From Pseudomonas oryzihabitans (GTDB lineage: Bacteria; Pseudomonadota; Gammaproteobacteria; Pseudomonadales; Pseudomonadaceae), in assembly GCF_001518815.1 (NCBI RefSeq), contig NZ_CP013987.1:1405001-1469000 (forward strand): 64,000 bases of DNA, read 5' to 3'. The notes under the pieces were generated by a model, which was not told the origin of the DNA, did not search any database, and saw only the letters and a program-made list of their open reading frames with translations. Within the stretch, counting starts at the first letter, position 1, and each line of letters opens with the position of its first letter. This document shows positions 26,240 to 63,715 of this stretch, in pieces. The position numbers and the translations under genes are program-made.

Positions 26240-26691
26240 GGGCAGATCCTCGCTCGATGGGGATTGCGATAACTATAAGCGTCTCGCTGGAGCGTGCCAG
26301 CCTCGAATGGGGTGTGCCGATGGATGGTCTGGGGGGCGGTTCCTGGAGTGACAATTGGTGTTGGGCGGGCCCTTATCCCAGCCCTCTCCCGGAGGGAGAG
26401 GGGCCGCCTGGCGCGGGCGGGAGGCTGCACTCCACGCGTTCGGGATGGCCCAGGTGGAAAACGCTGCGCGGTTTTCCACGCTACGGCTGCGATTGGGGAC
26501 GGGCCCTCACCCCAGCCCTCTCCCAGAGGGAGAGGGGGCGGATTGGTGTGAGCGGGAGGCTGCGCTCCACGTGTGCGGCATGGGCACAGGTGGAAAACGC
26601 TGCGCGGTTTTCCACGCTACGGCTAGGTGAGGAGGTAGCTACGTAGGTTGGGCTAAGCGCAGCGAAGCCCAACGACTACCCCATCGTCCCA
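26240..26691. repeat. 452-bp repeat patch between azoR and the PepSY gene
   Basis: There is no credible gene. The patch has two CCCTCTCCC...GGGAGAGGG hairpins (near 26383 and 26516), two nearly identical GGTGGAAAACGCTGCGCGGT-type elements (26453-26488 and 26589-26624; arms GTGGAAAA/TTTTCCAC) and one GTAGGTTGGGCT...AGCCCAAC element (26643-26673). The first two element types alternate, so this is an older, shorter version of the array at 61978-62620. Confidence 0.85.
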
Positions 26692-55499: not shown

Positions 55500-56369
55500 A
55501 TGACTAGACGCCTACCCAGTACTACGGCGCTGGTGGCCCTGGAGGCGGCCGCCCGCCATCTCAGCTTCGCCAAGGCGGCGCAGGAGCTGTCGCTCAGCGA
55601 GGGCGCGATCAGCCGGCAGATCGCCAAGCTGGAGGCTGCATTGGGCGTCAGGCTGTTTCTGCGGATCGGCAATCGCGTCGAGCTTTCCGCTGCCGGAGCC
55701 CGCTATGCCGCGCACATGCGCACGGCCCTTGCCGACATCGAACGCCACACGCGGCAACTGATCGCCCAGGCCCGCGGCACCACCGCGCTGGAGATCGGCG
55801 TCATCCCGACCCTGGCGGGTCGCTGGCTGATCCCGATGCTGGCGCGCTTCCAGGAGCGCTGTCCGGACATCGAGGTCAATCTGCGCGAGCGGACGCAGCC
55901 CTTCGCCCTGGAAGACAGCGGACTGCACGCCGCGATCAACTATGACCATCCGGTCTGGCACGGTCTGCGGGTGCAGCCGTTGTTCGAGACGCAGCTGGTC
56001 GCGGTCTGTCATCCGCGCCTGGCGGGCAATCCTCCGGCCAGCCTGCCGCTCCTGCACAAGCTGGAGAGTCCGCACAGCTGGGCCCGTTATGCCACGCTCA
56101 CCGGGTTACCCCTGGGCGCCCAGGCGGTTGGTCCTACCTATGATCGCTACTCGCTGCTGATCGAGGCCGCCAAGGCCGGCTTTGGCATGGCCCTGGTACC
56201 TGAGCACTACATCGAGGAGGACCTGGTCGCCGGCCGGCTCCAGGCGCCCTGGCCGGTCCTGCCGGAACTGCGCGAACGCTATGTGCTGGTCACCCGTCCC
56301 ACGACGGAAATCGATACTGCGCTCGCAAGTTTCGAACGTTGGCTACTGGAAGAGGCGAGGGTGGGGTGA
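55500..56369 (+). CDS. LysR-family regulator (GcvA-like)
   Basis: 289 aa. The HTH at about residues 19-40 (SFAKAAQELSLSEGAISRQIAKLE) and a substrate-binding domain with GcvA-type character (LPSTTALVALEAAARHLSF at the N-terminus) are visible. A weak RBS precedes ATG 55500. It is divergent from the DUF998 gene (128 bp). The regulated gene is unknown. Confidence 0.92.
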   Translation: MTRRLPSTTALVALEAAARHLSFAKAAQELSLSEGAISRQIAKLEAALGVRLFLRIGNRVELSAAGARYAAHMRTALADIERHTRQLIAQARGTTALEIGVIPTLAGRWLIPMLARFQERCPDIEVNLRERTQPFALEDSGLHAAINYDHPVWHGLRVQPLFETQLVAVCHPRLAGNPPASLPLLHKLESPHSWARYATLTGLPLGAQAVGPTYDRYSLLIEAAKAGFGMALVPEHYIEEDLVAGRLQAPWPVLPELRERYVLVTRPTTEIDTALASFERWLLEEARVG

Positions 56370-57058
56370 GGGAGGTCGTGGAGCCGTAGGTTGGGCTGAG
56401 ACGGCTCCACCGTCGAAGCCCGATGGCCCAGCCTTCACCTAAACTGGCGTTGGGCTTCGCTGTGCTCAGCCCAACCTGCCTTCGTGCCAGCGTGGAAAAG
56501 GCTGCACCGTTTTCCACCCTACGCCAGGCATGACAGGTGCCTCCCACTCCCTCGGGTAGAGCCAGCCGTAGGTTGGGCTGAGACGGCTCCATCGTCGAAG
56601 CCCAACGGCCCAGCCTTCACCTGACTGATGTTGGGCTTCGCTGTGCTCAGCCCAGCCTACCTTTTGTGCCGCGTTTTCCTTCCTGCTGGATGTCCATCCC
56701 AGGCGCTCCCTCTCCCTTGGGGCGAGGGCCGGGGTGAGGGAAAGGAGCGGGCGCAAGGAGCGCTAGGATCACACCTTGAGGCGTCTCATCGTCTTCTGCG
56801 GATGGCTGCGCAGGGTGGCCATGGCGACCTTGGTGGATTCCATGTCCGGGCTAGTAGCTCGATCTGGTCGACTGCCTTGCTCACTGTCGGACTCGTCTTC
56901 ACCCAGTCGGGCAAGACCTTCGATCCGGAGCAGGTGGGGACGCGCCGAATCCCACGCAGCTGTAGCTTCCGGTAGTGCAAAGCTGGCGCAAGACACCGCC
57001 AAGCAAAAACGCCCCGACCTCACGGCCGGGGCGTTTCCCATGGGGCTAGGCTACCCGA
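56370..57058. repeat. 689-bp intergenic region: repeat patch plus an unassigned segment
   Basis: From 56386 to about 56740 it contains four GTTGGGCT/AGCCCAAC-family elements, a GTGGAAAA/TTTTCCAC element near 56491 and a CCCTCTCCC...GAGGG element near 56708. From about 56770 to 57005 nothing is recognisable; short frames exist on both strands but lack support. Convergent genes flank it, and a bidirectional terminator ends it at 57008-57035. Confidence 0.8.
57008..57035. terminator. bidirectional rho-independent terminator after acetolactate synthase
   Basis: AACGCCCCG (57008-57016) pairs with CGGGGCGTT (57027-57035), 9 bp with a 10-nt loop, preceded by AAAA and followed by TTT. It ends the minus-strand acetolactate synthase gene 24 bp before it and works on both strands by sequence. 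Confidence 0.8.
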
Positions 57059-61051: not shown

Positions 61052-61972
61052 ATGATAAGAATAGCCATCGTCGGTTTGGGCAAGATCGCCCGTGACCAGC
61101 ACCTGCCGGCGCTCGCCGCCAATCCTGAATACGAGCTGGTCGCCGTGGCCAGCCGCAACGCCCAGCTCGACGGCGTCGCCCACTATCCCAGCCTGAGCGC
61201 CCTGCTCGAAGACGGCCCGGCCATCGACGCTGTGTCCCTCTGCGCGCCAGCGGCGGTGCGCTACGAACAGGCGCGCGAGGCCCTGGCCGCCGGCAAGCAC
61301 GTGATGCTGGAAAAGCCCCCGGGGGCGACCCTGAGTGAAGTGGAAGCCCTGACCCGTCAGGCCGAGGCGGCGGGTCTTTCGCTGTTCGCCACCTGGCATT
61401 CCCGCTATGCCCAGGGCGTGCAGCCGGCCCGCGAATGGCTGGAAGGCAAGCGCATCCAGGCGGTGCGCATCGAATGGAAGGAAGACGTGCGCGTCTGGCA
61501 CCCCGGTCAGGCCTGGATCTGGGAACCGGGCGGCATGGGCGTCTTCGATCCGGGCATCAATGCCCTGTCCATCGTCACCGCCATCCTGCCGCGGCCGTTC
61601 TTTCTCAAGGAGGCCGCGCTGCAGGTACCCGGCAATTGCCAGACCCCGGTGGCCGCGCAACTGGCCTTCGTCGACAGCGCCGGCGTACTCATCGCCGCCG
61701 ACTTCGACTTCCTGCAGACCGGACCCCAGACCTGGGACATCCACGTCGACACCGAGGCCGGTCGCCTGACCCTGAGCAAAGGCGGCAGCGAACTGTACCT
61801 GGACGGCCAACTGACCCACCAAGGCCCCGACCAGGAATACGCCGGCCTCTATGCCCGCTTCGCCGAACTGGTCGCCCAGAACCGCTCCGACGTGGACGTG
61901 GCACCGCTCCGCCACGTGGCCGACGCCTTCCTCTATGGCCGTCGCGAGACAGTGGCGGAGTTCCACGAGTAG
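61052..61972 (+). CDS. Gfo/Idh/MocA oxidoreductase, L-arabinose/D-galactose 1-dehydrogenase-like
   Basis: 306 aa. An N-terminal NAD(P) Rossmann fold (GLGKIARDQHLPAL near 8) and the catalytic EKPPG motif (Lys near residue 90) characterise the family. The stretch WHPGQAWIWEPGGMGVFDPGINALSIVT resembles the Azospirillum L-arabinose and Pseudomonas D-galactose 1-dehydrogenases. These oxidise the sugar to its lactone. No lactonase, dehydratase or sugar transporter is next to it. Confidence 0.85.
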   Translation: MIRIAIVGLGKIARDQHLPALAANPEYELVAVASRNAQLDGVAHYPSLSALLEDGPAIDAVSLCAPAAVRYEQAREALAAGKHVMLEKPPGATLSEVEALTRQAEAAGLSLFATWHSRYAQGVQPAREWLEGKRIQAVRIEWKEDVRVWHPGQAWIWEPGGMGVFDPGINALSIVTAILPRPFFLKEAALQVPGNCQTPVAAQLAFVDSAGVLIAADFDFLQTGPQTWDIHVDTEAGRLTLSKGGSELYLDGQLTHQGPDQEYAGLYARFAELVAQNRSDVDVAPLRHVADAFLYGRRETVAEFHE

Positions 61973-61977
61973 GGCGA

Positions 61978-62620
61978 CCCTCACCCCAACCCTCTCCCCG
62001 AGGGAGAGGGGGCGCTTGGAACTAGCGTAGGGTGGAAAACGGCGCAGCCTTTTCCACGCGCGGTACTCGTAGGTTGGGCTGAGCGCAGCGAAGCCCAACG
62101 GGACGGGCCTGTTGGGCTCCGACAATGGAGCCGTCTCAGCCCAACCTACGGGTTAGCGGTTCCCTCACCCCAACCCTCTCCCTGAGGGAGAGGGGGCGCT
62201 TGGACCCAGCGTAGGGTGGAAAACGGCGCAGCCTTTTCCACGCGCGGTACTCGTAGGTTGGGCTGAGCGCAGCGAAGCCCAACGGGACGGGCCTGTTGGG
62301 CTTCGACGATGGAGCCGTCTCAGCCCAACCTACGGGTTAGCGGTTCCCTCACCCCAACCCTCTTCCTCTGAGGGAGAGGGGGGCGCTTGGACCCAGCGTA
62401 GGGTGGAAAACGGCGCAGCCTTTTCCACGTGCGGTACTCGTAGGTTGGGCTGAGCGCAGCGAAGCCCAACGGGGGGTGGTCCTGCCTGTTGGGCTTCGAC
62501 GATGGAGCCGTCTCAGCCCAACCTACGGGGTAGCGGTTCCCTCACCCCAACCCTCTCCCTGAGGGAGAGGGGGCGCTTGGACCCAGGTAGGGTGGAAAAC
62601 GGCGCAGCCTTTTCCACGCG
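61978..62620. repeat. tandem array of about 3.5 copies of a 184-bp composite repeat
   Basis: Units begin with CCCTCACCCCAACCCTCT at 61978, 62162, 62346 and 62539 (spacing 184, 184, 193). Each complete unit has four inverted-repeat modules: CCCTCTCCC/GGGAGAGGG, GTGGAAAA/TTTTCCAC, TTGGGCT...AGCCCAA, and GTTGGGCTTCGACGATGGAG...AGCCCAAC. The last copy stops after the second module. The array occupies almost the whole 654 bp between two convergent stops. Confidence 0.95.
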
Positions 62621-62626
62621 GGCGGA

Positions 62627-63715
62627 TCAACGCCGCTCCAGCAGCACCCCACTCTCCATATGGTGCGTCCAGGGGAACTGGTCGAACAGGGCGCAGCGGG
62701 TGATGCGGTGGGTGTCGTGCAACTGGGCGATGTTCTCGGCCAGGGTTTCCGGGTTGCAGGAGATGTAGAGGATGCGCTCGAAGCGGCGGGTCAGTTCGCA
62801 GGTGTCCCGGTCCATGCCGGCGCGGGGCGGGTCGACGAAGACGGTGCCGAACTGGTAGCTCTTGAGATCCACGCCGGCCAGGCGGCGGAAGGGCCGGACC
62901 TCGTTGAGCGCCTGGGTCAGTTCCTCGGCGGAGAGGCGAACCAGGGCGACATTGTCCACGCCATTGCTGGCCAGGTTGTGCAGCGCGGCGTTGACCGAGG
63001 TCTTGCTCACCTCGGTGGCCAGCACCCGGCGCACCCGGCTGGCCAGCGGCAGGGTGAAGTTGCCGTTGCCGCAATAGAGCTCCAGCAGATCGTCGTCACG
63101 TTCGCCCAGGGCGGTGTGGGCCCAGGTGAGCATCTTCTGATTGACCGTGCCATTGGGCTGGGTGAAGCCGCCCTCGGGTTGCAGATAGCGGTAGGTCTTC
63201 CCGGCCACCTCCAGTTCTTCGATCACATGATCGCGACCGATCACCAGGCGCTGGCCGCGGGAACGACCGATCAGGCTGACGCCGAGGTCGGCGGCCAGGC
63301 GCTCGGCGGCAGCCTGCCAGGCGGCGTCCAGGGGGCGGTGGTAGGCCAGGGTGATCAGGGCGTCGCCGCTCAAGGTAGTGAGGAATTCTGCCTGGAACAG
63401 CTTGAACGACAGGGCCACGTCCGCCTGCCAACCGGCCTTGAGGCGCGGCATCAGGTCATTGATGCGCTGGCTGGCGATGGGAAAGTCTTCGATGAGGATC
63501 GGCGTGTGCTTGTCGCCCGGGGCGAACATGGCGTAATGGCGTTCTTCGTTCTCCCGCCATAGGCGGAATTCGGCGCGCAGGCGGTAGTGCTGCAGCGGCG
63601 AGGCGAAGACCTCCGCTTCGGGAGCCTGGAAGGGCGCTAGCAGCTCGCGCAGACGGGTGGCCTTGGCGTCGAGTTGGACCTGGTAGTCGGCGGGGGCGAA
63701 GGAGGGCTGGGACAT
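62627..63715 (-). CDS. trmA: tRNA (uracil-54-C5)-methyltransferase TrmA
   Basis: 362 aa, the length of E. coli TrmA. The SAM motif [14 protein letters not shown] is near residue 213, [10 protein letters not shown] near 300, nucleophile Cys320 (YISCNPETL) and general-base Glu354 near the C-terminus (HHMESG). TrmA methylates U54 in the T-loop of tRNAs. No TRAM domain or iron-sulfur cysteines are present, which excludes RlmC/RlmD. It is monocistronic, and its 3' end abuts the repeat array. Confidence 0.97.

Follow-up and report, generated by a model that had tools for sequence, protein, structure and literature searches.

The closest described relatives of the locus analyzed here are the hybrid bacterial interspersed mosaic elements (BIMEs) of Stenotrophomonas (PMC2817692), the GTAG super-family of repetitive extragenic palindromes (REPs; PMC3733652), the ordered clusters of REP doublets forming hairpins (REPINs) in Pseudomonas fluorescens SBW25 (PMC3116915) and, for one module, the intrastrand triplex motif (TM) of Holder 2015 (PMC4666352). 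What is said of these four papers refers to the part of each that was available. The locus is a tandem array at positions 61978-62620 of a 64,000-nt stretch of Pseudomonas oryzihabitans DNA (RefSeq assembly GCF_001518815.1, contig NZ_CP013987.1, positions 1,405,001 to 1,469,000), hereafter the window, and consists of four modules named TM, B, C and D. With the Stenotrophomonas hybrid BIMEs it shares head-to-tail modules, inverted REPs, site-specific inter-REP segments and the union in one array of REPs from two systems of REP-associated tyrosine transposases (RAYTs). With the GTAG-REP super-family it shares the GTAG tag, the stem, dimers of short-loop and long-loop copies, and the preference for convergent and unidirectional gaps.

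The array is probably a hybrid BIME (a mosaic of REPs in tandem) with TMs as an additional component, and it is structurally variable between species. As a whole, its history is likely one of ancestral settlement of such a BIME followed by repeated local re-amplification, the result being tolerated rather than required.

Architecture and module identity of the array

Tandem Repeats Finder (TRF), applied to the window, returned a period of 184, 3.5 copies and 95% matches, and the units start at 61978, 62162, 62346 and 62539, giving spacings of 184, 184 and 193. With gaps counted, pairwise identity was 97.3% for units 1 and 2, 90.7% for units 1 and 3, and 93.3% for units 2 and 3. The best 150-nt self-match within 61501-63100 scored 0.987, against at most 0.46 across 200 dinucleotide shuffles. 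In a module map built by approximate matching, which misses degenerate copies, each full unit reads TM, 16/17 nt, B, 11 nt, C, 11/17 nt, D, 12 nt, and a partial fourth unit (TM, 15 nt, B) closes the array, so that the composition of the gap is (TM-B-CD)x3, TM-B in fixed module order. The array begins 5 nt past the stop of an oxidoreductase gene and ends 6 nt short of the stop of the convergent trmA. The period, copy number, extent, four ordered modules and filling of the space between both stops, all proposed by an earlier sequence-only reading, were thus borne out.

In B and C, a short imperfect palindrome has a GTAG tag at its base; module D is an inverted version of C whose loop is longer. 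Both B and C/D belong to the GTAG type of REP, and C together with its inverted counterpart D makes up a REPIN. Such C-D pairs of 81-87 nt were present at the array locus in seven genomes, in addition to 78 other distinct pairs at the loci scanned in the genome that holds the window (the host genome). Whole-genome copy numbers were 102 for C and 82 for B at up to 3 mismatches and 72 for TM under a strict pattern, with 0 matches for the reversed pattern of each. In 25 distinct B copies, drawn from 45 of the 82 genomic ones, the hairpin displayed paired stem changes (AT/CG/TA/GT at one pair, GC/CG at another), 10 of the 11 stem pairs being intact in 24 or 25 copies and the remaining pair in 23. 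Multiple head-to-tail modules, inverted REPs and site-specific inter-REP segments together characterize the array as a BIME; a further hallmark, for the BIMEs of E. coli, is that gyrase, IHF or DNA polymerase I binds to them.

The TM is a candidate triplex former: it occurs in high copy, its three blocks fit the class II purine triplex pattern, and it matches the motif of Holder 2015 (PMC4666352) in the common arrangement CCCTCTCCC-loop-GGGAGAGGG-loop-GGGTGAGGG. Two loop bases separate array copy 2 from the entry numbered 17 in Table 1 of that paper. Three of the four array copies fit the strict pattern, and copy 3 is altered. The triad count (71/71) is circular, since the search pattern requires the triads, and was not used. 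An Rfam RNA element was rejected as the identity of the array, because no Rfam family matched above its gathering score anywhere in the window.

The flanking genes and all modules are listed in Table 1. The assignment of the right neighbor to trmA in the sequence-only reading was confirmed by TIGR02143 (567.7 bits, cut-off 334.65), whereas its "gal-like" left neighbor turned out to be a 306-aa oxidoreductase that scored below every NCBIfam cut-off (best match PRK11579, at 53.5 bits versus 330) and that is, by resemblance, presumably of the Gfo/Idh/MocA type. Among the best 80 of 416 TrmA relatives, the top six, from P. oryzihabitans or Pseudomonas, were 94-96% identical and the rest at most 83%; judged by this protein, the host is within the Pseudomonas oryzihabitans group.

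Table 1. Coordinates of the array, its modules and the two flanking genes in the window
Feature	Position	Strand	Basis
Whole tandem array, 3.5 units	61978..62620	.	TRF and repeat search
TM copy 1 (published orientation on the - strand)	61978..62010	-	Pattern and module map
REP-B copy 1	62027..62057	+	Exact match
REP-C copy 1, left half of REPIN	62069..62099	+	Exact match
REP-D copy 1, long-loop inverted partner of C, right half of REPIN	62111..62149	-	2 differences from consensus
TM copy 2	62162..62194	-	Strict pattern
REP-B copy 2	62211..62241	+	Exact match
REP-C copy 2	62253..62283	+	Exact match
REP-D copy 2	62295..62333	-	0 differences from consensus
TM copy 3, altered arm, fails strict TM pattern	62346..62380	-	Module map
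REP-B copy 3	62398..62428	+	Exact match
REP-C copy 3	62440..62470	+	Exact match
REP-D copy 3	62488..62526	-	0 differences from consensus
TM copy 4	62539..62571	-	Strict pattern
REP-B copy 4, final array module	62587..62617	+	Exact match
Oxidoreductase, 306 aa, left flank	61052..61972	+	Open reading frame (ORF) list; stop 61970-61972; NCBIfam matches all below cut-off
trmA, right flank, convergent	62627..63715	-	ORF list; TIGR02143

The orthologous gap across the genus

Thirteen genomes of the genus, one per species, were searched: ten ingroup genomes, the host included, and three outgroup genomes. In all three outgroup genomes the gap is short (32, 43 and 44 bp) and module-free, and C, B and TM had zero matches genome-wide. 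In nine of the ten ingroup genomes the gaps are all distinct, with lengths of 230, 378, 506, 518, 622, 654 (host), 993, 1952 and 2168 bp. P. oryzihabitans KNF2016 (handled here as G001) has TM-CD, (TM-B-CD)x2, TM-B; G003 has (TM-CD)x3, with one TM degenerate, then TM-B; and G006 has (TM-CD)x2, TM-C, TM-B. Five CD, one TM-B and REPs of a further class, R, occupy the gap of G008, (TM-B)x2 and R REPs that of G012, and one CD and one B that of G011. In both G009 and G010 a TM-C is followed by a shared insertion of some 1.7 kb, with 78% identity between the two over 1697 nt. A gene scan of G010 placed LysE-type and AraC-type genes in its insertion. In the tenth ingroup genome, G007, no oxidoreductase was found within 4.6 kb beside trmA, and a TM and a C persist next to trmA. 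Genome totals reach 113 TM and 105 B in G001 and 169 TM in G008.

The locus is therefore structurally variable between species. The sequence-only reading had offered a recombination hot spot, of which this variability stands (nine distinct gaps in nine genomes, the G009/G010 insertion, the oxidoreductase not found in G007) and nothing beyond it.

Module clusters elsewhere in the genome

The census of arrays in the host genome covered 39 merged stretches (145,863 bases), picked as strong hits or multi-module clusters, and yielded 26 tandem arrays with a period of at least 60, 18 of which contain listed modules. Tandem arrays overlapped 18 of the 37 module clusters in those stretches (135 clusters in the genome), a fraction biased upwards by that choice of stretches. 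The claim that the modules appear singly at other sites was contradicted by these overlaps. Other arrays comprise (TM-B)x4 at 4461871, (TM-D)x3.5 at 1236878 and Bx5 at 3427972, while (TM-D-C)x3 from 2760522 is seen in the module map only and is unlisted by TRF. Among the loci listed in that map, each array repeats its own site-specific linkers. A TM-only tandem pair with TM flanks and no listed REP lies at 212961/213091.

Three further sites hold related repeats. The window contains a second array of TM and B modules, itself one of the 18 with listed modules, at 26366-26624 (period 136, 1.9 copies) and, at 56354-56742, a further mosaic of the same modules on the opposite strand, which matches a portion of the main array at 69% identity across 389 bases. 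A tandem array of C and R-type REPs lies at 1763103-1763671 of the host genome (period 172, 3.3 copies).

RAYT genes linked to the REPs

The host genome encodes a C/D-type RAYT in an open gene (C1:4097578-4098108) that C/D REPs flank on either side. Its protein scored 191.4 bits with NF047646 (cut-off 80) and 21.2 bits with PF01797, below the cut-off of 23, and was 92% identical to the RAYT of G008, itself flanked by C/D REPs. RAYTs of this type at 76% identity or more were found in seven of the ten ingroup genomes (host, G001, G003, G008, G010, G011 and G012), with C/D REPs on both sides in the host, G008, G003, G011 and G001. Another RAYT of the host genome, found with PF01797, is flanked by the separate REP class R. 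An initial view of a single RAYT in the host genome, with C/D REPs lacking a transposase, was overturned by the protein search, which found the RAYT missed by the PF01797 cut-off.

A second RAYT type in G001, G006, G010 and G012 is flanked by B REPs (degenerate on one side in G006), and the G006 protein scored 198.7 bits with NF047646. The B-type RAYT was not found in the host genome, where the single match of the protein search at E 1e-20 or better was the C/D RAYT; the B REPs of the host are thus without a visible cognate RAYT. G009 yielded no RAYT, despite 95 C and 97 B matches. No transposase was found for the TM, the third kind of repeat.

Origin and amplification of the units

The REPINs of the array are 92% identical among themselves (3 pairs), 90% identical to those at the same locus in G001 (9 pairs) and 82-88% identical to those of five other genomes. 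Compared with 78 other distinct REPINs of the host genome, they averaged only 73%, with a maximum of 90% (234 pairs). The array is thus closer to same-locus REPINs of other species than to REPINs elsewhere in its own genome, which argues that it descends from REPs already at the site. Within-genome means at the locus (host 92%, G001 96%, G003 92%, G006 93%, G008 92%) exceed the between-genome means, as repeated local amplification predicts, the exception being G010 with a single pair at 85%. Because G001 already has the TM-B-C-D unit, amplification appears to be recurrent rather than a single recent event. From the proposal of a recent tandem duplication, then, the tandem duplication survives, consistent with the greater likeness within genomes and the differing compositions among relatives, and the one recent event gives way to recurrence at the locus.

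A plausible course of events would begin, in the ancestor of the P. oryzihabitans group, with a REP mosaic settling between the convergent genes, B and C/D having presumably been inserted long ago by RAYTs. As short direct repeats, the repeated modules may then have allowed unequal recombination or slippage during replication, assisted by the hairpins and perhaps also by the triplex-forming TM. Whole blocks would thereby be duplicated along with their local linkers, and such local re-amplification could have happened time after time.

Several observations weigh against this course. The comparison covered one genome per species, so that the variability is between species only. The bias of the clusters towards convergent gaps (14 of the 19 scored, from 135 clusters; see below) could mean function instead of tolerance. 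No C/D REP was detected alongside the C/D-type RAYTs of G010 and G012 (76% identity), the genomes with the lowest numbers of C matches among the ten ingroup genomes (16 and 9, respectively). The amplification is not recent in its entirety, since unit 3 shows just 91-93% identity to units 1 and 2. Finally, RAYT rolling-circle amplification, as proposed in PMC2817692, would equally copy local linkers, and the C/D RAYT gene of the host is still open.

This last route, in which, along the lines conceived by Nunvar and colleagues, the RAYT itself amplified the array by copying a REP-bounded module in rolling-circle fashion, has perhaps the best claim among the alternatives and is nevertheless rather unlikely. 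It draws on the open, REP-flanked C/D RAYT gene and on the proposal of such a route to BIMEs in PMC2817692. Against it, the (TM-B)x4 and Bx5 arrays exist in a genome where the B-type RAYT was not found, with the proviso that a since-lost RAYT could have made them; the TM-only tandem pair lacks listed REPs; and G009, where no RAYT was found, has its 95 C matches.

Function of the gap

RNA folding of a single unit is strong whichever strand is taken (z -7.2 and -6.1), in agreement with the hairpins on both strands noted from the sequence alone. No intrinsic-terminator-like site (GC-rich hairpin plus T run) was found in 61800-62800, and an intrinsic terminator array was rejected on this ground; according to the discussion of PMC4666352, which cites earlier work, the triplex motif had no promoter or terminator activity. 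The suggested terminator array is thus unsupported by the sequence, Rho-dependent effects being possible.

Convergent gaps host 14 of the 19 scored clusters, as against 6 of the 24 window gaps of at least 60 nt (Fisher p 0.002), gene orientation having been scored for 19 of 135 clusters in a hit-selected sample with crude ORF calls based on GC content at third codon positions (GC3). Convergent neighbors make up 9 of the 49 neighboring pairs in the window. Such a preference, reported for GTAG-REPs together with one for unidirectional gaps (PMC3733652), is compatible with a role in RNA as well as with tolerance at the ends of genes.

Most likely, the array is tolerated rather than required. Tolerance is favored because nine species carry nine different arrays and three outgroups none, and because a site at the 3' ends of two converging genes is safe. 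As a by-product, the hairpins may protect both transcripts or bring them to an end, and whatever function the array has is probably incidental. A selected bidirectional 3'-end element that acts in termination, mRNA protection or as a read-through barrier between the convergent genes would accord with the strong hairpins on both strands and with the convergent-gap excess, rough as its ORF calls and sample are. It is at odds with the lack of intrinsic-terminator-like sites in 61800-62800, the different composition of the gap in each of nine genomes, the three outgroup genomes that manage without the array and the reported lack of TM terminator activity, and is considered improbable.

Other routes to the amplification

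Amplification driven by the TM, through an intrastrand triplex formed during replication, would fit the link of TMs to variable loci in E. coli (PMC4666352), the presence of a TM in every array unit (altered in copy 3) and the existence of the TM-only tandem pair. There are arrays without a listed TM inside, however, namely Cx3 at 3731908, 4150392 and 4657532 and the Bx5 array, which has a TM just outside, and footprinting in PMC4666352 gave no sign of a stable triplex in vivo; a leading part for the TM is hence unlikely.

That a single unit was wrongly expanded in assembly is very improbable: tandem repeats are prone to misassembly, but the units differ by substitutions and indels, the window sits in a one-contig assembly of 4,834,356 bases (4.83 Mb), and other genomes, the complete KNF2016 record among them, hold multi-unit arrays in the same gap instead of the single copy that the sequence-only reading had tied to an artefact.

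A TM-B composite repeat

TM and B stand in a preferred geometry. Among TM-B pairs no more than 60 nt apart, 21 of 24 are antiparallel in the host genome and 36 of 38 among the places listed for G001; pairs within tandem arrays are not independent, and counting by 1.5-kb bins gives 19 antiparallel to 3 parallel in the host genome. On the TM 3' side, antiparallel spacing is 20-25 nt in all nine host pairs and 20-26 nt in 18 of the 19 listed G001 pairs, and on the 5' side TM-B spacing varies from 13 to 59. The array itself is arranged otherwise, with B on the TM 5' side at 15-17 nt. Composite sites of TM and antiparallel REP-B number ten in the host genome, 4461871-4462309 among them, and occur in G001 too.

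The linkers of ten host sites are alike (score -0.29 versus -3.73 for shuffles, sd 0.51, with 0 of 500 as high), and this host-only test (10 sites, 500 shuffles) is the one relied on. A two-genome comparison gave z values of 5.2 after B, 15.1 in the linker and 20.4 before the TM, figures into which orthologous sites and shifted duplicates of one match are mixed. The 23 nt upstream of the TM are likewise alike at 8 sites with B (3.25 versus -4.55), with weaker likeness at 50 sites without B (-1.67 versus -4.12). A B lies within 100 nt of 23 of the 72 TMs, against a random mean of 0.3; this control flatters the association, since modules were spread over the whole genome and not over gaps alone.

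These regularities raise the tentative suggestion that in this clade the TM, besides being an independent repeat, joins with an antiparallel REP-B about 22 nt away in a dispersed composite element in which the triplex-forming hairpin would replace the second REP of a REPIN. The suggestion is doubtful, as none of the four B-type RAYT genes had a detected TM next to it, most host TM copies have no B within 60 nt, and the B-type RAYT was not found in G008 with its 169 TMs.

Comparison with known systems

TMs inside BIMEs, a TM-REP composite and the REPs of P. oryzihabitans had no description in the literature searched, in which subscription journals were thinly covered, and the main text of PMC3733652 does not include P. 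oryzihabitans. The TM-REP composite is the main interest of the locus, and the constant geometry between the TM and a REP linked to a transposase suggests a way of spreading that can be put to the test. The array is at the same time a further case of REP-driven intergenic turnover and a natural experiment, in which a single gap has found nine solutions in nine species and the module-free outgroup state is known.

The REP of Coxiella burnetii (Table 1 of PMC2817692) shares with module C the tag, the stem and the larger part of the loop, differs in a loop TT where C has GCA and is listed there without BIME association. The ordered REPIN clusters of SBW25 also show a 184-bp spacing in GI-GIII clusters, taken here as coincidence; the REP families differ, and no TM is described in the available part of PMC3116915. 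For the E. coli TM, an association with mobile elements was not found (PMC4666352, in the part available), whereas the TMs of the host genome lie within REP arrays, often antiparallel to REP-B. Compared with the hybrid BIMEs of Stenotrophomonas (PMC2817692), the array unit additionally has a TM, for which no RAYT was found. The array type, a BIME, is thus already known in bacteria, and the admixture of a triplex motif is its unusual part.
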